A stretch of DNA of 38,231 bases from an uncultured Coriobacteriia bacterium (lineage in GTDB: Bacteria; Actinomycetota; Coriobacteriia; Anaerosomatales; PALSA-660), in assembly GCA_903831865.1 (NCBI GenBank), contig CAIKZH010000025.1, positions 1 through 38,231 on the forward strand, read 5' to 3'. Shown here one piece after another: positions 813-21,731 of this stretch. The stretch's first letter is position 1; each line of letters opens with the position of its first letter. Both the position numbers and the translations under genes were made by a program. The notes below the pieces were generated by a model. It did not search any database. It worked only from the letters and a program-made list of their open reading frames with translations, and was not told the DNA's origin.

Positions 813-1937
813 ATGACCGACACGATCACACGGCCAGTCGAATCTGAGGCACCTTGTTGAGGCCCTCGCACCCTGCCGTGCAGCGGGGTCGAGAGACCGA
901 GCCTCGACCAGCCCTTCGTCACCGGGTCCCTGGACACGGCCACAGGCCAGGTCCCGATCGTGCCCACCACGCTGACGCGACGCGATAGACTCGGCGGCCT
1001 GAGGGTCCGCTGGGGGATCCGCCGCTTCAGCTACACCGTGGACCCTGGCCTGTACGCCGTCGGGCACCCGGACGACCGCTCACCTGTGCTCGTGACGGCG
1101 AACTACAAGCTCACATTCGATTCGCTCCGCAGGGAGCTCGCCAGCCGCGCCGCCTGGGTGCTGGCGCTCGACACGAGGGGCATCAACGTGTGGTGCGCCG
1201 CCGGCAAGGGCACGTTCGGAACAGACGAGGCGGTGCGGAGGATCGACGCGGCCCGGCTCTCTCAGGTCGTCTCGCACAACGTCGTCGTGCTTCCGCAACT
1301 GGGGGCTCCGGGCGTCTGTGCGCCGGACGTGAAGCGACGGTCCGGGTTCCGTGTCGTGTGGGGACCCGTCCGCGCCGCGGACCTGCCCGCCTTCCTCGGC
1401 GCCGGCATGCGCGCCACGGACGAGATGCGGCGCGTGCGCTTCCCGCTGCGCGATCGTCTGGTCCTCGCGCCGGTCGAGCTCATGGGCGCCGCGAAGATCG
1501 CGCTCGCCATCGTGGCGGCTGCGGCGATCGTGGGAGGCGTCGGCCCCGGGATCTTCTCGCTCCCCCGTGCGTGGGCGGCGGCGTGGCCGGCCGCAGCCGC
1601 GGTCGCGGCGGCGCTCGTCGCCGGCGCGGTCGTGACGCCCGCGCTGCTGCCATGGGTCCCGGGACGGATGTTCGCGCTCAAGGGCGCGGAGGTCGGTGCG
1701 CTCGCCGCGGCGATCCTGCTCGTCCCATTGGCGCGGGCGTTCCCGGTGCTGCGGCTCGCGGCAAGCGCGATCTTCATGGTGGCCGCGACATCGTTCATCG
1801 CCATGAACTACACCGGCACATCCACCTTCACGTCGCTCTCGGGAGTGAAGAAGGAGATGCGGGCCGCGCTCCCGTGGCAGGTCGGCTCGGCGGCGCTGGC
1901 CGCCGCGCTCTGGATCGCAGGAGGATTCGTCCGATGA
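813..1937 (+). CDS. hgcA: HgcA, mercury-methylating corrinoid membrane protein; predicted selenoprotein (in-frame TGA 858-860)
   Basis: HgcA transfers a methyl group from its corrinoid cofactor to Hg(II), giving methylmercury. The cap-helix signature NVWCAAGK is present at residues 125-132, with Cys128 as the lower-ligand cysteine. Five membrane helices follow at about 222-244, 254-277, 292-310, 312-332 and 354-371. The first canonical start without a stop is GTG 960, but family-like coding (DQPFVTGSLDTATGQVPIV) continues in frame upstream of it. The frame runs back to ATG 813, well placed behind a promoter, and is interrupted only by TGA at codon 16 (APC-TGA-GPR). From memory, several HgcA proteins carry CC at this point, so Sec is the best reading. 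The full product would be 374 residues, a normal HgcA length. No strong Shine-Dalgarno is seen at 813. The stop overlaps hgcB by 4 bp. HgcA identity is near certain; Sec insertion is inference. Confidence 0.93.
861..898 (+). promoter_or_regulatory. Candidate bacterial SECIS region of hgcA
   Basis: Directly after the TGA, CUGC (873-876) pairs with GCAG (880-883) around a CGU loop (877-879). CC (871-872) can extend the stem with GG (885-886) past a bulged C. The loop G lies 18 nt after the UGA, inside the 16-37 nt window known for bacterial SECIS elements and close to the spacing in E. coli fdhF. A second small hairpin, GGUC-GAGA-GACC (887-898), follows. The stems are short, so the call rests on position and on the GU in the loop. 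Confidence 0.45.
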
Positions 1938-2209
1938 CAGGCATGCGCTACGTGGACGACGTCGTCACCCTGGAGTTCGATGTCGAGAAGTGCACGGGCT
2001 GTCAGCAGTGCACCCTCGTCTGCCCCCACCGGGTCTTCGAGATGAGGGGCGACCGCGCCGCGCTCGTCGACCGGGACGCCTGCATCGAGTGCGGCGCCTG
2101 CGCACGCAACTGCGCCTTCGACGCGATCCACGTGCGCCCCGGCGTGGGCTGCGCGTCCGCGATCATCGCGTCCTGGTTCGGAGGCAGAGCCGAGCCCTGC
2201 TGCGGGTAG
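1934..2209 (+). CDS. hgcB: HgcB, ferredoxin partner of HgcA
   Basis: HgcB is the small 2[4Fe-4S] ferredoxin that works with HgcA. It is thought to deliver low-potential electrons to the corrinoid and to pass Hg(II) to it. The 91 residues carry CTGCQQCTLVC and the HgcB-typical CIECGACARNC, and end in the vicinal pair CC-Gly, the proposed Hg(II)-binding tail. The ATG at 1934 overlaps the hgcA stop (ATGA), so the two are translationally coupled. The internal ATG at residue 4 is a possible alternative start. The pairing with HgcA and the CC tail make the identification firm. Confidence 0.95.
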   Translation: MTGMRYVDDVVTLEFDVEKCTGCQQCTLVCPHRVFEMRGDRAALVDRDACIECGACARNCAFDAIHVRPGVGCASAIIASWFGGRAEPCCG

Positions 2210-5873: not shown

Positions 5874-5922
5874 CAGGTGGGGCACCTCCAGCTAAACTTG
5901 GGGACGAGTATACGACGATGCT

Positions 5923-5944
5923 CCTCGCGGAATACGCCGCGAGG
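5923..5944. repeat. Perfect 8-6-8 inverted repeat between DUF4446 and larB
   Basis: CCTCGCGG (5923-5930) and CCGCGAGG (5937-5944) flank AATACG. The repeat lies between a TATACT -10-like hexamer for the minus gene (5907-5912) and a TATCTT hexamer for larB (5961-5966), so it could be a shared operator. No known regulator consensus is recognised. Confidence 0.45.
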
Positions 5945-5995
5945 CGGCGGCGGACGGCGGTATCTTCGACGTCTGCGGAACGAGACGGGAGCCAC

Positions 5996-6802
5996 GTGGA
6001 CCACACGGGATTGCACAGCCTGCTCGCGGATGTGGCCGCCGGGAAGGTCGCAGTTGAGGAGGCGGCGAAGCGACTCCAGGACCTCCCCTTCGCCGAAGTC
6101 GAGGTGGATGGCGAGCGGGTCGCCCGTATCGACCATCACCGCGAGATCCGCACCGGCTTCCCGGAGGTCGTCTTCTGTCAGGGTAAGAGTCCCTCGCAGG
6201 TGAAAGCCATCGCGCGTGAGATCATCGCGCATGGTGACGTCCTGCTCGGCACACGGGCGACGGTCGCCCAGCATCAGGCGGTGGCCCAGGTCGCGTCCGA
6301 CGCGCGCTACTTCGAAGACGCCCACATCCTGCTCGTGGATCGACGCGAGGAGCGTCCCACCGAGGGCCATGTCGTCGTCGCCAGCGCCGGGACCGCCGAT
6401 TTCGGCGTCGCCGAGGAGGCCGCGATCTGCTGCGAGACCATGGGCGACCGCGTCGCGCGTCTCTACGACGTCGGCGCCGCCGGGATCCACCGTGTGCTGG
6501 CCTCCCGGGCACAGCTCGCGGAGGCCAGGGTGATCATCGTCGTCGCCGGCATGGAGGGGGCCCTGCCGACCATCGTCGCCGGGCTCGTGCGCGTGCCCGT
6601 CATCGCGGTGCCGACGAGTGTCGGCTACGGCGCGCACTTCGGGGGACTCGCTCCGCTGCTCACGATGCTGAACTCGTGCGCGCCCGGGATCGGCGTCGTG
6701 AACATCGACAACGGCTACGGAGCGGCGGCGCTGGCCACCCGGATCAACCGGCCCGACACCGCGACTGACGCTCCCGGCCAGCCGGCGGGAGCTGCCCAGT
6801 GA
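5996..6802 (+). CDS. larB: LarB, carboxylase/hydrolase of nickel-pincer cofactor synthesis
   Basis: LarB carboxylates the pyridinium ring of nicotinic acid adenine dinucleotide and cleaves its phosphoanhydride. This is the first step toward the nickel-pincer nucleotide of lactate racemase and related isomerases. The 268 residues carry the family blocks RTGFPEVVFCQGKS, SAGTADFGVAEEAA, GAAGIHRVLA, VVAGMEGALP, VPTSVGYGAHFGG and a terminal NIDNGYGAA. GTG 5996 has GGGAG just upstream. Other in-frame starts (from 5918) would add a non-family leader. The stop overlaps the larC start (GTGA), so the pair is coupled. Confidence 0.93.
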   Translation: MDHTGLHSLLADVAAGKVAVEEAAKRLQDLPFAEVEVDGERVARIDHHREIRTGFPEVVFCQGKSPSQVKAIAREIIAHGDVLLGTRATVAQHQAVAQVASDARYFEDAHILLVDRREERPTEGHVVVASAGTADFGVAEEAAICCETMGDRVARLYDVGAAGIHRVLASRAQLAEARVIIVVAGMEGALPTIVAGLVRVPVIAVPTSVGYGAHFGGLAPLLTMLNSCAPGIGVVNIDNGYGAAALATRINRPDTATDAPGQPAGAAQ

Positions 6803-7980
6803 CCGGTTCATTCGGCTTCCTGGACTGCTTCTCGGGCATCTCCGGCGACAAGTTCCTCGGCGCGCTCGTCGGCGCGGGCCTCGAGCCTGCCCTCCTGAGG
6901 GAGCGGCTCGCGGCGCTGGACGTGCCCGGCTGGGAGCTGAGGGCGGAGACGGTTCTCTCATCCGGCATCAGCGGCACCAGGGTCACGGTCGACGTTGAGC
7001 CGGGACAGCGCTCGCGCGACTGGAGGACGATCCGGGAGATCATCGAGCGCTCATCACTGGAAGCCGCCGTGCGGGAGAGCGCGCTCGCGGCGTTCGCAGC
7101 GCTCGCGGAGGCGGAGGCGGCCGTCCATGGTTGCGCGGTCGAGGATGTGCACTTCCACGAGGTGGGCGCCGTGGACTCGATCGTCGACATCGTGGGTGCG
7201 GCCGTAGGCCTGGCTGAGCTCGGCATCACGGAGCTGTGGAGCACGCCGGTCCGGCTCGGCAGCGGCACGGTCATGACCTCGCACGGGGAGTTGCCCGTGC
7301 CGGCGCCCGCCACGGCGCGGCTGCTGCACGGCATCCCGGTCTACGCGGGCGAGATCCCCGGTGAACTGACCACGCCGACGGGAGCCGCACTGCTGCGGGC
7401 GTTCGTGAGCCGGTACGCTCCGATGCCTCCGATGCGCGTGAGCGCCGAGGGCTGGGGCGCGGGCACTCTCAAGCTGGCGCTGCCCAACCTGCTGAGACTG
7501 TCGGTGGGCGAGCGGGAGACCGGTGGCGACGTCGAGGAGGTCGTCGTGCTCGAGACGTGCATCGACCACGAGAGTGCGGAGATCATCTCCGCCACCATCG
7601 ACCTGCTGCTCGAGGAGGGCGCCCTCGACGCCTGGAGCGAGCCGGTGCGCATGAAGAAGGGGCGGCTGGGGACCGAGGTCACGGTCCTTGCGGGGACCGG
7701 CGACACCGAGCGGCTCTCGGAACTCCTGATGAGACATACGGGGACACTCGGCGTGCGCCGGACGCCCACATGGCGCCAGATCGCCCCGAGGCGCCTCACG
7801 ACGGCGACCACGTCGCTCGGACCGGTGCGTGTGAAGGTGCAGGGCGAGGGTGCGGATCTGCGCGTACGTCCCGAGAGCGATGACGTCGTGGCGGTCGCCC
7901 GCGCCACCGGGCTCCCCCTCGGCCAGGTCATGCGCCGCCTCACCGAGGAGGCCCGGGAGGCGCTCCGGTCCGAGGAGTAG
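6799..7980 (+). CDS. larC: LarC, nickel insertion protein for the pincer cofactor (single full-length frame)
   Basis: LarC inserts nickel into the pincer nucleotide in a CTP-dependent step. The 393 residues start FGFLDCFSGISGDKFLGALV. They show HFHEVGAVDSIVDIVGAA, a GELPVPAPATARLL block, the TTPTGAALL motif, and the C-terminal half beginning near LETCIDHESAEIISATIDLL. In Lactiplantibacillus, LarC is made by programmed frameshifting from two frames; here it is one continuous gene. larE and a racemase gene are not in this window, so the enzyme that uses the cofactor is unknown. Confidence 0.93.
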   Translation: MTGSFGFLDCFSGISGDKFLGALVGAGLEPALLRERLAALDVPGWELRAETVLSSGISGTRVTVDVEPGQRSRDWRTIREIIERSSLEAAVRESALAAFAALAEAEAAVHGCAVEDVHFHEVGAVDSIVDIVGAAVGLAELGITELWSTPVRLGSGTVMTSHGELPVPAPATARLLHGIPVYAGEIPGELTTPTGAALLRAFVSRYAPMPPMRVSAEGWGAGTLKLALPNLLRLSVGERETGGDVEEVVVLETCIDHESAEIISATIDLLLEEGALDAWSEPVRMKKGRLGTEVTVLAGTGDTERLSELLMRHTGTLGVRRTPTWRQIAPRRLTTATTSLGPVRVKVQGEGADLRVRPESDDVVAVARATGLPLGQVMRRLTEEAREALRSEE

Positions 7981-12032: not shown

Positions 12033-13172
12033 CTAGGAGTCGCCGTGACGCTGCTGGTCGGCGGTCGTCTGGGCCTGGTCGGCGGTCAGGAAGCGGTCTG
12101 AGTACAGGAAGACGTCGTCGCCGGTGTTCGGCACGAGCTTGATGTCCTCGTAGAGCTCCAGGGCACGGGCCACCGCGCCTTCGATCTCGTGGCGGTCCAC
12201 GCCGAAGGCCGGATAGTAGAACAGCTGGACGTCCGTGGCGCGCGGATAGACCTCGGCGGCCTCTCTGACCGTCTCAGCGATGATATAGGCCGCATCGTGA
12301 GACTCGCCCCTGAGCAGCACCGTGGCGTATTCCTCGGTCATGTAGGCCTTGGAGTAGGCGAACTTCTCTCCACTCTTGGCCGTCAGCACCGAGACGTCGA
12401 TCGTCGCGGGGTCATCCATCATCTGCTCCAGCAGCGCCTCGATCTCGCCGGGCTGGGTGTCGGGCGCAAGCGTGTCGAGCCACGCCACCGGCGTCAGCTT
12501 CGCGAGGAACTTCGAGTCCGCCCGTATCTCGACGACGATCTTGACCTTCAACTCCACAGCCCTCGCCTTGGCTGCGGCCTGCTCTTCAGTCAGGTGTGCG
12601 TCGGAGTAGTAGTAGACGAGCCCGCTGAAGGCGAGCACCGACTTGATGTCAGAGGCGGTCTCGTCCGTGGAGATGGCCGCCATCGCTGTGTCGAACTCGG
12701 CCTTCTCAAGCCCACCCGACAAGCGCATCAGCACGTCGGCCGCTGTCGGCGCGGCAGCGTCCTTCGCGTTGTCCCGGATCAGCTTCACGAGCGCGGCCCG
12801 GAGCTCAGGCTCGCGGGCAAGCTTCTCCGCGGTCTCAACGTCCACGTACTTGTCGCAGTAGAGATAGGTCGCGCCCGTGAATGTGTAGGTGGGGTGGATA
12901 TCGCCGTAGGAGTCGTCGTTCGCGAGCTCGATCAGCCGCCAGCTGATCTCCTCAGAGGGCACGTCGACTGCGAGCTCCTTGAGCTGGTCGGTGCGAGTGG
13001 GAGCCTCCAGCTTCTTCGAGTCGCTCCGCACCCGCTTGGCGGCAGCGTCCTTGAACTTCTTGGAGGCCGCCGTCTCCGGGCGTTCCTCGTAGACGTGGGC
13101 CGCCGCGGATGCGTCCCGCTGGTACTGCGCCGCCAGCGCCGCCTTCGCGGCCATGTTCTCCTCCATCGGCAT
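12033..13172 (-). CDS. Four-repeat protein of unknown function downstream of AOR
   Basis: This 379-residue soluble protein has no signal peptide or membrane helix. After a charged, probably helical head (1-60) it holds four degenerate repeats about 84 residues apart. Their cores are ATYLYCDKYVDVETAEKLA (102-120), LVYYYSDAHLTEEQAAAKA (185-203), KFAYSKAYMTEEYATVLL (270-287) and DVFLYSDRFLTADQAQTTA (353-371). The shared pattern is an aromatic-Tyr-Ser/Cys-Asp/Lys strand followed by a T-x-E/D-x-A helix. GAGAGGGG lies 9 nt before ATG 13172. It is co-oriented with the AOR gene 160 bp upstream and is probably a companion of that enzyme. I recognise no known domain. Confidence 0.75.
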   Translation of the reverse strand: MPMEENMAAKAALAAQYQRDASAAAHVYEERPETAASKKFKDAAAKRVRSDSKKLEAPTRTDQLKELAVDVPSEEISWRLIELANDDSYGDIHPTYTFTGATYLYCDKYVDVETAEKLAREPELRAALVKLIRDNAKDAAAPTAADVLMRLSGGLEKAEFDTAMAAISTDETASDIKSVLAFSGLVYYYSDAHLTEEQAAAKARAVELKVKIVVEIRADSKFLAKLTPVAWLDTLAPDTQPGEIEALLEQMMDDPATIDVSVLTAKSGEKFAYSKAYMTEEYATVLLRGESHDAAYIIAETVREAAEVYPRATDVQLFYYPAFGVDRHEIEGAVARALELYEDIKLVPNTGDDVFLYSDRFLTADQAQTTADQQRHGDS

Positions 13173-13224
13173 ATCCGAAGACCCCTCTCGCTACCTGTCA
13201 TGAGCGAACACGCGTTCACGTTCC

Positions 13225-13266
13225 GGGGGCAAGGACCACCCGAGAAACCGGATGGCCCTTGCCCCC
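13225..13266 (-). promoter_or_regulatory. Long intercistronic hairpin after the AOR gene
   Basis: On the minus strand a 10-bp G/C-rich arm (13257-13266 with 13225-13234) continues through 9 more base pairs, some G-T, to a TTTC tetraloop. The total stem is about 19 bp. No T-run follows, so a mRNA-stabilising or attenuating hairpin between the AOR and repeat-protein genes is likelier than a full terminator. Confidence 0.55.
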
Positions 13267-13332
13267 CATTCTCCGTGCTTGCCGACCCTGCGGCACGTGC
13301 AATCCGCTGGGAGGTCGGTGTCTATGTGGAAC

Positions 13333-15558
13333 CTAGCCCAGCAGCCCCAGTGTCTCCATCTCGGAGGCCACGTCGTTCATCCCCAGATCGAGGTAGGCCT
13401 GCTTCCTCGGCGCGCCCGTGGAGCTCCAGTTCATCGCAGTGTAGAAGGCCTGGACGGCGGTGTTCATGTCCGCCGGGTCCTGCCTCTGCGAGGTACCGGT
13501 GAGGGCGGTCTTGCTGCCCCAGAACGTGGGGTTGTTGAACATGGCATCCGGGAACGCATCGTGACCGGTGAAGAAGGTCAGGCCGTTTGCCGGCGCAGCG
13601 TTGTACTGGATCATGTTCGTGGTCCCCATGCCCCGGATGGTGAGTGCCCGCAGCAGCGTGAAGATGCGCAGTCCGGTGTGCAGGAACTGCGACTCGGTCT
13701 GCTTGTCGCCCGTGACCATCGAGTACTCGTCAGCGAGCAGATGGCTGTCACCAAGGTACCCGCGCTCTGCGAGCGGCGAGAACCAGGTGGCCGCCGCCCC
13801 GCCGCGGTTGCACTGGCACAGCGAGTTGTTGAGGACGCCCTCGGCTGCCAACCGGACCGTCAGTGCGGTCTTGGAGGCGTTCCAGGGAAGCGTGTTGCTG
13901 TTGGGATCGCATGCGGCGTGACCGATCGGATTGCCGTAGACATCCGGGATCTGGTCCCAGACCGCTGCGTCCACGGCGGCGACGCCGGTGCCGTTGATGT
14001 GGGTCTGCTCATGCATGCATGGGTCGCGGTTGTACATGGAGTTGATGATCGAGCCGGTCTGCTGGCCCTCGAAGTGATGGGGCGCGAACCAGGTCGTCTC
14101 GTTCCAGCAGACTGCCTTGCCGAAGGCCCGCTCCTGCTGCATGAAGGCGTACGGGAACTTCTCGGGACCGCCCCAACGCTTCCACCACGCCTTGCTGCCG
14201 AGTCCGTGAGCGTAGCCGAGCTCACCGATGCGGAAGGCGAAGCGCTTCAGGATGTCGGTCATGAACGCCGGATCGCCAGAGGCCTGCGCCGCCCAGTTGA
14301 TGGAGTTGTACTCCGCCGCGGGGAGGTTGGCCTTGGTGATGCCCTTGAACGCACTGCTGTAGTAGGCGAAGTCGCCGGTCAGGATGTGGTAGTCGTCGCC
14401 GATACCGTAGTCGTCCTGAAGGATGCTGCCCATGAAACGCCCGCCGGGGGCGTCATAGCCGGAGGCGTTCGCGAGGCTCTGGATCTGCGCAGCGGTCGTG
14501 GCCGTGCCGTAGTAGTCGCTCGGGCTGGAGATGCCGCCGCACTCGTTGACGCAGTACTGGCCGTAGCCGTTGTTCGTCTGCATCTCAGGCACGTTGACCG
14601 CCTGGTGGCACGGGTTCGGGCAGCCGAAGCAGGCGGCGCCGCGGACCATCCACTTCATGTGGCGGTCGCTGGAGTTCCAGCTCGTCCTGGTGCCCGGGCC
14701 TCTGAAGGCGTAGGTGTGGACGTCGTGCGGGTCCGTCATGCCGGTGTTGACCGGCGGGCATGCCGCGCCCCACCACACGGTGGGGTCGCCTGTCCAGTCG
14801 CCGCCGCCGTAGTACTGCGCCCAAGGCTTGGGCTTGCCAGGCGTCATGCCGCCACTGGTACCACCGACGAGGCTGGTGTGGTGCGCGATCTGCGCAAGCA
14901 GCTCGCGGCCGGTGCACGCGATCTTGAGCGAGCCGGTGCCGTGGACTGCGATGGCCTTCAGGTTCTTCGAACCCATGATGCCGCCGGCGTTCTGCCCGGA
15001 GTGCGAACGGTCGCACATCGCGGTCGCCGCGCCATGCATGTTCTCTCCGGCCTGACCGATGGACACGACGCTGACGGCCTCCTGGCCGACCTCGTCCATG
15101 ATCGCGGCGTTCGTGTAGAAGTTGCCGTTGCCCCACATCTTGCGGGCGTCACGGATCGAGACGTTGTCGTTGTCGACGAAGATCCACACCGGGTTGGGCG
15201 CCTTACCCTCGACGATGATGGAGTCCCAGCCTGCCAGCTTGAGCAGCGAGCTGAAGTGTCCACCGGCGTGACCGGTACCCGGAAGGTTATCGGGGTTCGT
15301 GGCCAGCAGCGAGGTGAAGGAGATCCGGCCGTTGTGGGGCAATCCGGTCCCGTTGAGGGGACCGACGCCGATGATGAGCTTGTTCTCCGGAGCAAACGCG
15401 GGAGTGTGGGCAGGAACCTCGTTCCACAGGACCTTGAGACCAAGGCCCTCTCCTCCGACGTAGTCCTTGTACTTGGCAATGGTGTCGTCCGCCGAGACGA
15501 CTCCGGTCGTAAGGTTCACGCGGAGCGTCTTGCCGGTCCAACCGCCGTATGTCGGCAT
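13333..15558 (-). CDS. Aldehyde:ferredoxin oxidoreductase family (tungsten-bispterin) enzyme
   Basis: This 741-residue member of the AOR family is expected to bind tungsten-bispterin and one [4Fe-4S] cluster and to catalyse a low-potential two-electron reaction on an aldehyde, acid or related substrate. The family start YGGWTGKTLRVNLTTG is present. The cluster motif CFGCPNPC falls at about residues 308-315, with the distal Cys in NNSLCQCN near 580. Internal blocks such as IIGVGPLNGTGLP and GSKNLKAIAVHG are clear. AGGAGG lies 8 nt before the ATG. It follows a DMSO-reductase-type ferredoxin gene by 30 nt, as in the YdhV/YdhY pair of enteric bacteria. It has no signal peptide although that partner has a Tat motif. 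The substrate is unknown. Confidence 0.9.
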   Translation of the reverse strand: MPTYGGWTGKTLRVNLTTGVVSADDTIAKYKDYVGGEGLGLKVLWNEVPAHTPAFAPENKLIIGVGPLNGTGLPHNGRISFTSLLATNPDNLPGTGHAGGHFSSLLKLAGWDSIIVEGKAPNPVWIFVDNDNVSIRDARKMWGNGNFYTNAAIMDEVGQEAVSVVSIGQAGENMHGAATAMCDRSHSGQNAGGIMGSKNLKAIAVHGTGSLKIACTGRELLAQIAHHTSLVGGTSGGMTPGKPKPWAQYYGGGDWTGDPTVWWGAACPPVNTGMTDPHDVHTYAFRGPGTRTSWNSSDRHMKWMVRGAACFGCPNPCHQAVNVPEMQTNNGYGQYCVNECGGISSPSDYYGTATTAAQIQSLANASGYDAPGGRFMGSILQDDYGIGDDYHILTGDFAYYSSAFKGITKANLPAAEYNSINWAAQASGDPAFMTDILKRFAFRIGELGYAHGLGSKAWWKRWGGPEKFPYAFMQQERAFGKAVCWNETTWFAPHHFEGQQTGSIINSMYNRDPCMHEQTHINGTGVAAVDAAVWDQIPDVYGNPIGHAACDPNSNTLPWNASKTALTVRLAAEGVLNNSLCQCNRGGAAATWFSPLAERGYLGDSHLLADEYSMVTGDKQTESQFLHTGLRIFTLLRALTIRGMGTTNMIQYNAAPANGLTFFTGHDAFPDAMFNNPTFWGSKTALTGTSQRQDPADMNTAVQAFYTAMNWSSTGAPRKQAYLDLGMNDVASEMETLGLLG

Positions 15559-15588
15559 ATTCTTATCCTCCTTGAGCCTTTGAAGCGG

Positions 15589-16365
15589 CTATTTCTTGGT
15601 CGAGGCGACAGAACCGGCGGTGTGACAGTCGTCACACGTGGCCTCGACGCCGGGACCGGGCTGGACGTACGCCGGAACGGCCTGCCTTGCAGGCTGGTCC
15701 TTGGTCCTGTCCACCCACGGCACGTAGCTCAGAGCGCCGGAGGGGCAGATCGCGACGCACTGGGGATTGCCGCCGCACAGGTCGCACTTGGTGGCCTTGT
15801 TGGTCTCCTTGTCGAGAGACGGCATGGCCCACGGGCACGCCTTCGTGCAGATCCCACAGCCGATGCACTTCTTGGAATCGATGACGCGCGCGTTCGTCGC
15901 CGGGTCCACGCCGATGGCCTGCTGGGGGCACGCCGTCATGCAGGGGACGGGGTGCGGGCACTGCAGGCACGTGTCGGCCACCAGGCGATGGTTGCCGAAG
16001 ATGCCCATGCCGTTGCTGTAGCCGACGCGGGGGCCCTCGGGACCGAAGTTGTAGTTACGAGAGAGCTTGACGCGCGATATCGCGACGCTGATCTTGTCGT
16101 CGTGGTAGAGCGAGCAGGCCACTTCGCAGCGCCTGCAACCGACGCAGCGCGACGGATCGTGGACGACCATCATCTTGGCATTCGGGATGAACACCGTGGC
16201 GTCCGTTGCCGTGCTCTGCGACTTCATGATGGAGAGGCCGGTGGTGAGTCCCACAGCCCCCATCATCGAGACTTTCACGAAGTCTCGTCTTGAGGTCTCG
16301 CCCAAGACGTCAGACACATGGAAACCGTCTTCGGCGGTAGTCATCTTCTCATCTTTCTCAGCCAC
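15589..16365 (-). CDS. Tat-signal 4x[4Fe-4S] ferredoxin subunit with one C-terminal heme-c motif
   Basis: This 258-residue electron-transfer subunit is of the DmsB/YdhY type. A twin-arginine element TSRRDFVKV (24-32) precedes a short hydrophobic stretch (33-47). Four cysteine clusters follow: CVGCRRCEVAC, CLQCPHPVPCMTAC, CIGCGICTKAC and CDLCGGNPQCVAIC. Near the end CDDCH (244-248) is a CxxCH heme-c motif, unusual for this family. GTG 16365 gives the longest product; ATG at residue 8 is possible. It lies between the surface cytochrome gene and the AOR gene, so it could carry electrons from AOR to the outside. The Tat motif and heme motif both suggest an extracytoplasmic location, but export is not proven by sequence. 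Confidence 0.88.
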   Translation of the reverse strand: MAEKDEKMTTAEDGFHVSDVLGETSRRDFVKVSMMGAVGLTTGLSIMKSQSTATDATVFIPNAKMMVVHDPSRCVGCRRCEVACSLYHDDKISVAISRVKLSRNYNFGPEGPRVGYSNGMGIFGNHRLVADTCLQCPHPVPCMTACPQQAIGVDPATNARVIDSKKCIGCGICTKACPWAMPSLDKETNKATKCDLCGGNPQCVAICPSGALSYVPWVDRTKDQPARQAVPAYVQPGPGVEATCDDCHTAGSVASTKK

Positions 16366-16486
16366 TGTTTACCCGCCTTTCGTTCTCCGATTCGGTGACG
16401 GACTCTCACCGCTGGTTCCTCAACGAGACTGCTGGTGTCGGTTCAATGGAGACTTCCGAGGACCGCAGCTCGCGTGTTGAGAAGAG

Positions 16487-18424
16487 CTACTTCACCGTGA
16501 CGGTGATCTTGCTCGAGTTCGGAGCAGCCAGGTAGAGACCGCTGCCCGGGAAGCTGACGTAGAAGGAGTAGACGCCCTTCGCGGTCGGCTTGTAGTTGTT
16601 GTTCTGCCACAGCGAGCTGGCAGACCCCGCACCGTAGGTGAGGCGGTTCGAGGAGTACGAATAGAAGCTCTTGCCCGGCTTCTTGACCATCAGGGTCACC
16701 ATCAGGCCGTTGGCTCCAGGAGCGCCGACGAGCGCGCCGGAGACGTTGAACGCCTTGCCCAGCTTGATGCTGGATGCGCTGGAGCTGATGGTGAGCGCCG
16801 TGGCGATCGTGTACACAGGAGGCGACGCGATCGAGAAGGTCAGAGACTTCGTGCCCTCGGTGTTGCCGGCCTTGTCGACGCCCCAGTAGGTGATGGTGTG
16901 GGGACCGGCGCCGGTGACGTCGAACGCGACCGTGAAGGTGGAAGCGGTCGAGACGGGAGGCGTGGTGCCCGAGGCGATCGTGTAGGTGTGGCAGTCGGAG
17001 CAGTTGGAGCCACCGTTGGGATCAGACGGCAGGAAGTGATTGCCGTTGTTGTCGGTCGGCATGATCGCCGGGATCAGCGAAGTGCCGTGGCAGAGCGAGC
17101 AGCTGATCGACGGATCGTGAGTGGCGTGATCGGCGGGCTCGACGATCGCAGCGGCCTGTACGAACGTGTGACAGGTCTTGCAACCGGCGGTGACTCCGGC
17201 GTGCGAGATGGAGACGCCGACGGTCGGCAGGACCCACGTGGGGTGGCAACCTGCGGCGACGCAGCTGGCGTTGGCGGCGGTCAGAACCGCAGCCGAGCCA
17301 CCTGCGTGGGCAACGGGGATGGCAAGGTCGGGAGCGCCGAATGCGGCTGCCCGAACGCCGGCGGTGACGACCGGCTTGGCGACACCGTCGACCGTGTAGT
17401 TCAGGCTGGCCATGCCGGAACCGAAGTCAGGCGAGGTCAGCGTGATGTGAGCGGTGGAGCCGGCGGCCAGAACTGCGCCGTTGGCTACGCCGGCAAGGGT
17501 CGTGACAGGCGCGGTGGCATCCACGACGGTGACAGTGAAGGCCTTCGTCACGATCGCGCTGTGGAGACCGCTGTTGTCGACGCTGTAGTACGACAGCGAG
17601 TGGTCGCCCGCAGCGGTCACGGTGACGGTATTGCCGCTCTTCCAGTCACCGTTGTCGAGGCTGTACCACAGCGACGCGATACCGGAAGCGTCCGTACCCG
17701 AAAGGGTGATGGTCGCCGATCCGGGGTACGTGGCCGCGGCGTTCGACGACACCGTCGGCAGGATCGTGTCGCTGATGGTGAAGTTCATGGAGATCGAGAA
17801 CCCGGCGTTGCCGCCGGTGTCCTTCGCCCACGCGACGAGAGTGTGGAAGCCGCGCGCCGTGACGGTCACGGCCGCGCCCGAGACAGCGGGTGCGCCATCG
17901 AGGCTGTACCAGGTGGAGGCTACCGGCAAGCCACCAGTGGCCTGCACGCCCGTGAAGGTGATGGTCGCGCTGTTGTCATAGGCGGTCAGGTTGCTCGAGA
18001 GGATCAGCGGCAACGTGTTCGCCAGAGTGAACGACTTGTGGACGGTGACGCCGGTCTGCTGGCCGATGGTGGCCTCAGCAGACGTGCTCGTGTCCACGGA
18101 GAAGTAGTCCAGCGTGTGGCTGCCGATCATGCCCCAGCTGGTGATGGGCAGGCTGATCGTTGCGGAAGCAGGCCATGCCGCGACCGTCGCGATCGAGCCA
18201 CCGTCGAACGAATAGACGGTGTACTTGTAGGTCCCGCCCACGCCGGGAGTCGCGGTCAGAGAGATGACCGCTGTGTTGTTGTAGGCGGCGACGGCGTTGT
18301 CGGTGGTCGTCGGCGCTGCGAAAGCAAGCGCCGGTACGGCGAGGACGACAACAGCCGCGAGCCCGAAGGCCACTGCCAGCAGCGCCTTGGAACGAGCGCT
18401 GTGATTCCTGCGCGTCTTGCTCAT
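16487..18424 (-). CDS. Secreted Ig-like repeat protein with a four-heme c-type domain
   Basis: This 645-residue exported protein has a signal peptide (1-37, ending ALAFAAP). Several Ig-like/bacterial surface domains follow (about 38-330), with recurring WYSLDG and Y-SVD blocks. A compact heme domain (about 385-485) holds CVAAGCH (a CX4CH form known from cytochrome c3), CKTCH, CSLCH and CSDCH. Two further Ig-like domains run to the end (500-645). GGAGGG lies 8 nt before the ATG. It is the first gene of the block with the Tat ferredoxin and AOR, and probably passes electrons to extracellular acceptors or partners. No LPxTG or lipobox is seen, so surface attachment is unclear. Confidence 0.88.
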   Translation of the reverse strand: MSKTRRNHSARSKALLAVAFGLAAVVVLAVPALAFAAPTTTDNAVAAYNNTAVISLTATPGVGGTYKYTVYSFDGGSIATVAAWPASATISLPITSWGMIGSHTLDYFSVDTSTSAEATIGQQTGVTVHKSFTLANTLPLILSSNLTAYDNSATITFTGVQATGGLPVASTWYSLDGAPAVSGAAVTVTARGFHTLVAWAKDTGGNAGFSISMNFTISDTILPTVSSNAAATYPGSATITLSGTDASGIASLWYSLDNGDWKSGNTVTVTAAGDHSLSYYSVDNSGLHSAIVTKAFTVTVVDATAPVTTLAGVANGAVLAAGSTAHITLTSPDFGSGMASLNYTVDGVAKPVVTAGVRAAAFGAPDLAIPVAHAGGSAAVLTAANASCVAAGCHPTWVLPTVGVSISHAGVTAGCKTCHTFVQAAAIVEPADHATHDPSISCSLCHGTSLIPAIMPTDNNGNHFLPSDPNGGSNCSDCHTYTIASGTTPPVSTASTFTVAFDVTGAGPHTITYWGVDKAGNTEGTKSLTFSIASPPVYTIATALTISSSASSIKLGKAFNVSGALVGAPGANGLMVTLMVKKPGKSFYSYSSNRLTYGAGSASSLWQNNNYKPTAKGVYSFYVSFPGSGLYLAAPNSSKITVTVK

Positions 18425-18482
18425 ACTTCAGTCCCTCCTTGTTGTGCTAGAGGTGCCATGCTCTGACAATGTGTGTTCATCC

Positions 18483-18526
18483 GGTTCGCCGGGGCACTCT
18501 GCCGGAGTAGCCCCCCTGTACGAACC
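18483..18526 (-). promoter_or_regulatory. Hairpin in the cytochrome leader
   Basis: As minus-strand RNA, GGUUCG pairs with CGAACC. Inside this, GGGGC pairs with GCCCC and ACUC with GAGU around a CGGCA loop, giving about 15 bp with one internal loop and one bulge. It ends about 60 nt before the cytochrome start. It has no T-run and matches no riboswitch consensus I know. Confidence 0.45.
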
Positions 18527-18686
18527 CGATCCCCTCCCTCCTTGGTTGCTGGATCACCCTGAACCCCTGTTCGGGCTCCCCTATGCCCGCCCCCCGAGGT
18601 GCGCGTAGAACAAGAGCCGCGACGGCTGCAGGCCCGAGATGGGCCGACAGTCAACGCGGCTCGCACAGCTGCTTGGTGATGATTTG

Positions 18687-18756
18687 GCAGCCCCCGCGCC
18701 TTCCCCCGAAAAGCGGCGCAGCCCCTAGCGTCCGCTTGGCGCGGCGCCGGTGCTGC
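18687..18756 (-). promoter_or_regulatory. GC-rich structured segment of the cytochrome leader
   Basis: The ends GCAGC and GCTGC pair, followed by GCGCC with GGCGC. An inner AAGCGG pairs with CCGCTT. Together they make a long, partly interrupted stem. It could be a leader RNA structure; high GC alone makes chance pairing likely, so confidence is low. Confidence 0.3.
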
Positions 18757-18913
18757 AGCCTCCTTTTCGGAGAGGAAGGCGCCCTGGTTTCCCCTGGGCT
18801 CCCTGTCGGTCCTACTCCCTTGGCGCGAGCGCTTTAGGCGAGCATGACTCGGAGGCTTGCGACTGCGACCACGTCCATGTGCGATGGAAGAACCTGTGTG
18901 ATGCGCACGTGAA

Positions 18914-19642: not shown

Positions 19643-20443
19643 CTAGCGCAGCACGAGGAAGCGTGCGGCCTCGCAGGCCTGCACCATCGCCCGGATGTCG
19701 TCGTAGCTCGCTGAGTCGGCCGCCTCGAAGGTCGCGACGAGTCCGCGATCGAGAAAGCCGCGGGCAGCGGGGTCTCTGCCCATCGCGAGGAACGCATCAA
19801 GCACGGCGCCCCGTGTCGCCTCGGGAACGTGCGCGCCGGCCACGACGGGCTGGATCGTCGACGGACCCAGGGAGGCGATGACGCGCAATCCCTTCGCAAG
19901 CCAGGGCCGATCGCGCAGCTCCAGCGCGAGGACCTGAGAATCGATGGCCGCGGACTCCACCTCTCCCCGCATGACCCAGCCGATGGAGATCTCGTGGGCT
20001 CCCGACTTCACGACTCGGCCGAAGAACCCGTGCGTCTCGCCCATGGTGACCAGCACGAAGCGGACGATGCCGTAGCCCGAGTGCGACGAGGTCTCGTTGT
20101 AGGCGAACGACCTGTCACGCAGATCCGCGAACGAGCGGATGTCGCTCTCGCGACGAACGATGACATCGGAGAAGTAGACCGGACGCCCCCCGTACCTTCG
20201 GCCTTGGAGCACCGGAGCCGCGATGGGTTCGTAGGCAGCCGACCGCCGCCTGGATTCGAGCACATAGGGCAGGCTTCAAATGAAGCCGAAATCGGCTTCA
20301 TGCTCCGCGAAGACATCGTATGAACGGGTGCCGACCGCGAGGGTCGCGGTCACGCCGAGACAACGGCCGACGTACCGGACCATCTCCTCGTACACCTCGA
20401 GCATCTCGGGCGCGAGGAAGGAGACGAAGCGGACTGTGCTCAA
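19643..20443 (-). CDS. PhnD-like substrate-binding protein with in-frame TGA at a Cys position (candidate selenoprotein)
   Basis: This is a PhnD/phosphate-phosphonate type 2 periplasmic-binding fold. Two open stretches join in one frame across TGA 20276-20278: TVRFVSFLAPEMLEVYEE to EADFGFI, then SLPYVLES, APVLQGRRYGGRPVYFSDVI and SFADLRDRSFAYNETSSHSG. In this family the joint normally reads GFICxLPYV, so the TGA replaces a conserved Cys (residue 56 of 266). A hairpin follows at SECIS distance. TTG 20441-20443 starts the frame 7 nt after the L,D-transpeptidase stop. There is no signal peptide and no transporter gene nearby, so the role may be sensing rather than transport. A plain nonsense mutation (pseudogene) is the rival view, and the local palindrome makes it serious. 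Confidence 0.8.
20233..20251 (-). promoter_or_regulatory. Candidate bacterial SECIS hairpin of the PhnD-like gene
   Basis: The minus-strand RNA AGGCGGCGGUCGGCUGCCU forms a 7-bp stem (one G-U pair) with loop GGUCG. The stem begins 25 nt and the loop 32 nt after the UGA, inside the known 16-37 nt range. The loop starts GGU, as in the E. coli fdhF element. Confidence 0.5.
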
Positions 20444-20450
20444 AACCGCA

Positions 20451-21515
20451 CTACTCGCGGATGAACACCGGGTCGCCGATGCTGACGCGATTGTAGAGGT
20501 CATGGACCGCGCTGGGCATCATGCGCATGCAGCCGTGGCTGGCATGCGATCCGATGCTGCCGTACTCGCCCGGTGGGACCCCATGCATGAAGACGCCGGG
20601 GTAGTCGATGCCGATCTTTCTGTCACCCATGGGGTTCCCGGGGCCACCCGGGATCACATCGGGCATGCTCGCCGACCATGCGTCGTGCGGGTTGTACCAC
20701 GGGGAGTCGGCCTGCTTGGTGACGATCTTGAAGTCGCCCTTGGGCGTCGGCCACGCGGGCTGGCCGGGTGCGCAGCGGTATGTCTTGACCAGCTTCGCGC
20801 CGTTGTACAGGTAGATCGTGGTCCGGGACAGCGAGACGACGATGCCCATCTTGAAGCTCGACTGGAGGACCTTGGGCGTGAGGACGTTGACGGGCAACGA
20901 GACGTCGCGGCTCGCCGACGCCAGGGCTGCGTCTGCCGTCAATGCCTGGGAAAGCTGCTCGACGGCCTTCGTCTGATCGACGGACGCCCCCATGACAGCA
21001 GGCGTGATGCGCATCGTGTACTTGGGACCCGCCGTGCGAGTGGCGTTGACCGGCCTGCGAGCGACGACCTTGGCCGTGTCCGCCACCCACCCAGCCACTG
21101 CCGACGTGTCGATCGAGAACACCGGCTTGACCTCGGCGGCCAGCGGCCTGCCCGTGATCCGGCTGGTCAACCGTTCGACCAGCGTGGCCTGATGCAGCGG
21201 AGTGTATGCCTGATCGACCATGGCGTTCGCGTCGACGGACACGATGCCTCTGGGATCCAGCACCCACGACTTGTTGTCGCCCGTGATGTTGACGGGCCGC
21301 ATCATGGGCGCAGACACGGCTTCGTCGATGGCGGTGCGTACCTGCGCTTCGTTCATCCCGCTCAGGTTGCGACCGGCGAGCGTCACACCCTTGGACACGA
21401 TGCCGCGCGACACGTGGTCGCTGACGATCGCCAATGCGGAAGCGGCCGAGAGCAGGAGCATGAGCACGGACACGCCAACGAGGACGATCCCCTTCGCCTT
21501 GTCTTCTGCCTTCAT
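20451..21515 (-). CDS. L,D-transpeptidase (YkuD) with N-terminal membrane anchor
   Basis: This cell-wall enzyme forms 3-3 cross-links or attaches proteins to peptidoglycan. The 354 residues have one N-terminal membrane helix (about 8-30), a peptidoglycan-binding/YoaR-like region (about 40-210), and the YkuD catalytic domain (about 225-354). The catalytic domain carries IYLYNGAKLVKTY, the conserved HGVPPGEYGS and the active-site SHGCMRM. GGAGAGGA lies just before ATG 21513-21515, chosen over the longer frame. The PhnD-like gene follows by 7 nt and is probably co-transcribed. The 216-nt gap upstream holds only a small CTCGC/GCGAG hairpin (21637-21651). Confidence 0.9.
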   Translation of the reverse strand: MKAEDKAKGIVLVGVSVLMLLLSAASALAIVSDHVSRGIVSKGVTLAGRNLSGMNEAQVRTAIDEAVSAPMMRPVNITGDNKSWVLDPRGIVSVDANAMVDQAYTPLHQATLVERLTSRITGRPLAAEVKPVFSIDTSAVAGWVADTAKVVARRPVNATRTAGPKYTMRITPAVMGASVDQTKAVEQLSQALTADAALASASRDVSLPVNVLTPKVLQSSFKMGIVVSLSRTTIYLYNGAKLVKTYRCAPGQPAWPTPKGDFKIVTKQADSPWYNPHDAWSASMPDVIPGGPGNPMGDRKIGIDYPGVFMHGVPPGEYGSIGSHASHGCMRMMPSAVHDLYNRVSIGDPVFIRE

Positions 21516-21731
21516 CGAAGTCCTCTCCAAGCCCGCCGGCGAATCGTCACCGTGCTGCCCGCCCCTTTGGACACCGCACACACGCAGTCTACTATCCCAT
21601 GGACCCGAAGTGCGGCACTCATACGCCTGAGCGGTTCTCGCAAGAAGCGAGCCAGCTGTGATGCGGACGAGCGGCGGTCGCCGTCGTCGCGGCTGTCGCG
21701 CGCCCGCGGGTCGCTGGCATGCCCTCGTGTC

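Follow-up and report, generated by a model that had tools for sequence, protein, structure and literature searches.

In AioX, arsenite bonds to the sulphur of Cys106 within a pocket made up of Tyr88, Cys106, Tyr131, Ser161, Ser163, His192 and Asp210, and in PhnD the place of Cys106 is taken by Gly65 (PMC5908839). Both AioX and PhnD are exported. A compilation of prokaryotic selenoproteins tabulates 119 families or subfamilies, with SaoX, SaoB and BtuF as its substrate-binding members, and this 119-entry table has no PhnD, AioX or PF12974 entry (PMC13188914), in agreement with the initial annotation of the DNA studied here, which knew of no PhnD-like selenoprotein. Our search of the selenoprotein literature likewise returned no PhnD, ArrX or arsenite-binding type, with two papers by Haft on new selenoproteins lying beyond its reach.

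Here, we describe a gene from an uncultured Coriobacteriia bacterium, located in a 38,231-nt stretch of DNA (the window), that almost certainly encodes a selenoprotein of a new family. Taken as a whole, the reading that we favour with reasonable confidence is that of a selenoprotein with a PhnD/AioX fold, probably cytosolic, that captures a thiophilic oxyanion through its selenocysteine (Sec).

A PhnD/AioX-like gene with an in-frame UGA

The coding sequence occupies positions 19643–20443 on the minus strand and, when read through, specifies 266 residues between a TTG at 20443–20441 and a TAG at 19645–19643. We infer the exact start from alignment to the homologue L015, in which the ATG is placed 4 residues further upstream. 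An L,D-transpeptidase gene (20451–21581) ends in a stop codon 7 nt before the frame begins. The 266 codons of the frame include a single in-frame stop, a UGA at 20276–20278 (minus strand), which corresponds to Sec at residue 56 in the context ADFGFI-U-SLPYV. The initial annotation had reported a frame intact on either side of this codon, and it was right in this and in the coordinates: in a profile search, the product of read-through gave a PF12974 match (2.6e-35) that covers residues 12–247 and spans both sides of the UGA. When coding signal was scored on both sides of TGA codons, this one ranked highest in the window (19.2), and the runner-up (14.5) was an ordinary gene end. The initial annotation had also counted two such genes within 20 kb, a claim that our scans of the window for a second selenoprotein gene do not support, as they gave ordinary gene ends and some candidates that fail to convince, but nothing else.

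Rfam searches gave matches limited to tRNA, tRNA-Sec and the Moco riboswitch. Several other features of the window are of separate interest. A Moco/tungsten riboswitch at 18866–18744 (minus strand) heads a gene set at 12033–18866 (minus strand). The products of this set include a protein that is predicted to be secreted and contains several CxxCH-like motifs, a 4Fe-4S protein, an aldehyde ferredoxin oxidoreductase and a YdhW-like protein, and we take the set to resemble E. coli ydhYVWXUT. At 5918–7980 (plus strand), a gene for a LarC-type nickel insertion protein adjoins an AIR-carboxylase-like gene, presumably of the LarB type. The mercury methylation genes hgcA (NF040863, 423.6 bits, cut-off 275) and hgcB (NF040864, 120.5 bits, cut-off 99) lie at 960–2209 (plus strand). 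The window HgcB has Cys in the motif GVGC, and selenoprotein forms of HgcB have GVGU (PMC13188914).

The UGA of the PhnD/AioX-like gene is conserved well beyond its own genome. Homologues in seven further genomes, 45–65% identical to the window protein, carry TGA at the same codon, which places the in-frame TGA beyond chance and brings the TGA form to eight genomes from seven genera and three families. One homologue, from another family of the same order, is 65% identical with TGA at this codon, and its gene is also found in a Coriobacteriales groundwater MAG (JACRBU010000142). At 1e-20, three of 61 relatives searched had a match, the window's own genome included, and none of the genomes searched from the same genus (4) or the same family (3) yielded the gene. 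A sample of the class gave matches in 5 of 396 genomes at 1e-15, and a sample of the phylum gave matches in 33 of 396 at 1e-20, adding two TGA genes. One of these belongs to an order with 18 genomes, all of them from family f54, where six matches were found, every one with TGA, and a sample of the surrounding class (399 genomes, 1e-30) returned the same six together with one Cys homologue. One TGA gene sits on a 4.60-Mb contig, and phage records gave no match. These counts are not independent, since a single family contributes six of the eight TGA genes.

Among 38 aligned homologues, the site is TGA in 8, a Cys codon (TGC or TGT) in 30 and nothing else in any. These 38 are what remains of 39 sequences aligned to the window protein after one row with a gap at the site was dropped; the count leaves out matches in G574, G679 and G545, second copies in G425 and G686, the exported-type homologues L014 and L017 (Cys) and L016 (Ser), and L098 (Cys). 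Both forms thus occur at the site, and Cys stands exactly where the initial annotation had placed it in the family, in all 30 of the homologues without TGA. L016, an exported-type homologue from Coriobacteriia, has its Ser at the Cys106 site in the sequence FVSAGAY, where its relatives have Cys. Cyanobacterial plasmids (L018, L019 and L020) bear a Cys form without an evident signal peptide, and in L020 this gene lies near a LysR gene and genes annotated as cadmium resistance transporters.

On the tree, the distribution of Sec requires three changes, of which well supported branches force only one. Because the window gene and its partner are sister to Cys genes, gain or loss of Sec probably happened more than once, although this falls short of proof. 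The ratio pN/pS between the window gene and L015 is 0.38 before the TGA and 0.46 after it, and that between L079 and L080, which belong to one genus, is 0.46 before and 0.16 after. These values indicate that the gene evolves as protein on both sides of the codon, the segment 3' of the TGA being under constraint as well.

Sec decoding and the downstream hairpin

The source genome (G000; 2.16 Mb in 192 contigs, 96% complete) encodes the Sec machinery. Its contig C126 carries selD, selA and selB and, further along, a tRNA-Sec gene with anticodon UCA. The matches for selB (377.8 bits, cut-off 242) and tRNA-Sec (70.4 bits, gathering score 47) are well above threshold, and selA and selD were identified by their translations rather than by family search. 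The selD gene (L011) has an in-frame TGA of its own in the N-terminal loop (SKSG-U-AAKYG), so by the same logic as that applied to the PhnD/AioX-like gene it is a Sec-type selD. In the interval that separates the selB and tRNA-Sec genes, the opposite strand encodes a protein containing many CxxCH motifs. The presence of all four components bears out the earlier expectation that this organism decodes Sec, through the Sec genes rather than through a second gene in the window; since Sec decoding is shown independently, the claim of a second candidate can be dispensed with.

In the window, 10 of 22 supported genes also use TGA as their ordinary stop, so the genetic code is unchanged. Both selB and tRNA-Sec score above cut-off in the four TGA genomes tested (G000, G012, G436 and G624). 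More broadly, 22 of 25 homologue-bearing genomes pass the selB cut-off, the remaining three being 75–82% complete, and in 8 of the 22 the match extends over no more than roughly the first 60% of the model. Sec users make up 21.5% of sequenced bacteria (PMC5029168), a value that is not a matched background for the 22 of 25.

In bacteria, the element sought downstream is a hairpin close behind the UGA whose small apical loop contains a guanosine (PMC1088965). A candidate SECIS of this kind lies at 20233–20251 (minus strand), where a 7-bp stem encloses a GGUCG loop (AGGCGGC-GGUCG-GCUGCCU); it begins 25 nt past the UGA, and the loop lies 32–36 nt past it. The initial annotation had these coordinates, loop and spacing correct, but the window hairpin taken alone does not stand out from dinucleotide shuffles (z = 0.33) or from synonymous shuffles (p = 0.195), so it gains weight only through comparison. 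The L015 hairpin is the same except for one U to C change in the stem, with pairing retained. Codon conservation within the hairpin is not significantly above that in the rest of the gene (9/14 vs 86/154, p = 0.38). Comparison of folding energy over nt +10 to +46 with synonymous-codon shuffles gave a mean z of –1.44 for the TGA genes (n = 8) and of 0.08 for the Cys genes (n = 30), which are not below their shuffles. The two sets differ with p = 7e-5, a value from related sequences, and with p = 1e-4 after removal of one of two same-genus genes.

In family f54, the hairpin is placed at +15 to +30, so that its distance from the UGA differs between f1/f6 and f54. Here L093 has CCGCC/GGCGG in place of CCGGC/GCCGG. 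Of 500 shuffles, 2 reach the covariation score of the f54 stem (0.453, from six related sequences), and all slid versions score lower. Counting against this stem, two of its five pairs fail in L049/L051 in the covarying register, and in L051 one pair of the alternative hairpin drawn for L049 is missing too. The hairpin signal is therefore weak for the window alone and significant for the set of eight related genes.

These observations bear on three other accounts of the UGA. If it were a real stop, the gene would yield a 55-residue product, with the remainder either left untranslated or translated from an internal GTG (20263), and this GTG does open a frame of 206 residues inside the gene. However, the two halves form one fold domain that would be split inside the pocket, and the same codon is TGA in eight genomes and Cys elsewhere, which makes termination here very improbable. 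Suppression by some other tRNA, whether Trp, Cys or near-cognate read-through, has no observation in its favour and seems equally hard to credit when 10 of 22 window genes end in TGA and a tRNA-Sec with anticodon UCA is at hand. Least likely of all is a pseudogene or sequencing error: a single base separates TGC or TGT from TGA, but separate assemblies from three families agree, one of them a 4.60-Mb contig, purifying selection extends past the TGA, and no other stop occurs in the 266 codons. Disrupted frames in close relatives, the sign of a pseudogene named by the initial annotation, were not seen, as these relatives keep both the frame and the TGA. Decoding of the UGA at 20278–20276 as Sec is the account that we adopt; it would be carried out by SelA, SelB, SelD and tRNA-Sec, presumably aided by the hairpin just downstream. 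Reading the codon in this way also corrects genes that annotation truncates at the UGA.

Pocket, cellular location and possible function

A profile search of solved structures ranked ArrX (7.9e-39) and AioX (4.5e-34) ahead of PtxB (2.8e-17) and PhnD (1.3e-12). The label 'PhnD-like' given by the initial annotation is thus apt at the level of the fold (PF12974), but the nearest solved relatives are ArrX and AioX, which are sensors of arsenic oxyanions. In both multiple and profile alignments, Sec56 aligns with AioX Cys106, and the Cys of AWIC in the annotated Pseudorhizobium banfieldiae AioX was confirmed to be residue 106. The alignments also match Tyr90 (codon 20174–20176) to AioX Tyr131, Ser120 and Ser122 of the Ser-His-Ser run at residues 120–122 (codons 20078–20086) to Ser161 and Ser163, His150 (19994–19996) to His192 and Asp168 (19940–19942) to Asp210, all on the minus strand. 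Tyr42 (20318–20320, minus strand) corresponds to AioX Tyr88 in the profile alignment only; in multiple alignments it fell opposite a gap or was shifted by one column, and f54 proteins have Phe or Tyr at this position. AlphaFold modelling with two sequences gave an unusable result (pLDDT 39.5).

A strongly hydrophobic segment at the N-terminus is absent from all eight Sec proteins, the highest 15-residue Kyte-Doolittle mean being 1.65, as judged by a simple hydrophobicity heuristic rather than a dedicated predictor. With no signal peptide evident, the Sec protein is likely to be cytosolic. The earlier description as a binding protein is accordingly doubtful in its periplasmic sense.

No gene neighbour shared among the TGA genes was found, and without a common neighbourhood the ligand has to be guessed from the pocket, which suggests something arsenite-like or selenite-like. 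Among the Cys relatives, family f40 has a more regular arrangement. In 7 of the 11 loci covered from this family (L104, L105, L108, L109, L111, L112 and L121), the Cys-form gene follows a phnD-phnC-phnE importer, and a LysR gene accompanies six of these seven. In L120, phnE lies at the contig edge, and L106, L107 and L110 have no importer. The f40 importer comes with a lipoprotein binding protein of its own, in which the site is Gly in the copies read; this implies that the cytosolic f40 paralogue is a second, inner oxyanion protein. Models matched in L105 and L109 name phosphonate import. The L105 LysR protein has a selenium-metabolism LysR model as its best match, below cut-off (192.7 of 250 bits), and the L105 importer binding protein reaches 192.3 of 250 bits with a putative selenate binder model, again below cut-off and with phosphonate models scoring higher. 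In L078 and L103, genes for a cysteine-synthase-type PLP enzyme and for ThiF/MoeB and ThiS/MoaD-like proteins occur within a few kb; this cluster lies by the homologue in G012 (Sec) and in G840 (Cys), which belong to different families, and may be chance.

We consider cytosolic oxyanion capture via Sec to be the most likely mechanism. In this model, a product with the PhnD/AioX substrate-binding fold would probably be retained in the cytosol, with its Sec occupying, within the oxyanion pocket, the position of the Cys that bonds arsenite in AioX. A thiophilic oxyanion would be captured by a bond to selenium and then handed on or signalled. A direct question that this opens is whether Sec raises affinity for arsenic or selenium oxyanions in nature.

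The main rival to oxyanion capture is a selenoprotein that is instead an enzyme on the same fold, with Sec as a catalytic nucleophile or redox residue and a bound oxyanion or small acid as its target. Cytosolic enzymes on the binding-protein fold do exist, in the THI5-type proteins and in MqnA/MqnD, and an enzyme would fit both the absence of an evident signal peptide and the f40 loci, where the importer already owns a lipoprotein binder and a second binder needs another job. It would also be in keeping with most known selenoproteins, which resemble thiol oxidoreductases (PMC13188914). However, there is no second Cys or Sec to make a CxxU or UxxC pair, and every pocket residue of AioX, a pure binder, has a counterpart, so that we regard an enzyme as unlikely while taking it seriously. 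A role in intracellular selenium handling, in which Sec or Cys would trap selenite or reduced selenium species and pass them towards SelD, is likewise a tentative suggestion and no more probable. It is hinted at by the high proportion of homologue-bearing genomes with selB, by the f40 importer and by the LysR and selenate-binder matches in L105. If true, it would concern a poorly understood step, the delivery of selenium to SelD. Oxyanion capture through Sec remains the reading that we prefer.

Comparison with known systems

With the selenoproteins already tabulated, the new family has in common UGA decoding, a downstream hairpin and Cys relatives. It resembles SaoX and SaoB (NF040735 and NF040727), which are also Sec-containing substrate-binding proteins linked to metal chemistry, but their motifs are UxP and CUxxT, as opposed to UxLP in the window protein (PMC13188914). 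Neither of the two models matched the window protein (P0001) or the L015 protein at E values up to 10, a search from which weak matches may have been filtered. Unlike selenoproteins with a thioredoxin-like redox motif, the family puts Sec in a ligand pocket.

Among binding proteins, the likeness to the phosphonate and phosphite binders PhnD and PtxB lies in the shared PF12974 domain. The window protein nevertheless falls short of the PhnD-type models, with 72.5 bits for TIGR03431 (cut-off 261) and 68.7 for TIGR01098 (cut-off 112). It differs from AioX in lacking an evident signal peptide and in having a five-residue insertion before the strand that bears Tyr131, and, unlike the loci of AioX-type sensors (XSR), the scanned window genes include no histidine kinase or response regulator. 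The resemblance to AioX, ArxX and ArrX comprises the fold and counterparts to all seven pocket positions, with Sec in place of Cys106. In this family, which is distributed over Actinomycetota and cyanobacteria, a pocket of the AioX type thus occurs in a protein that is probably cytosolic.
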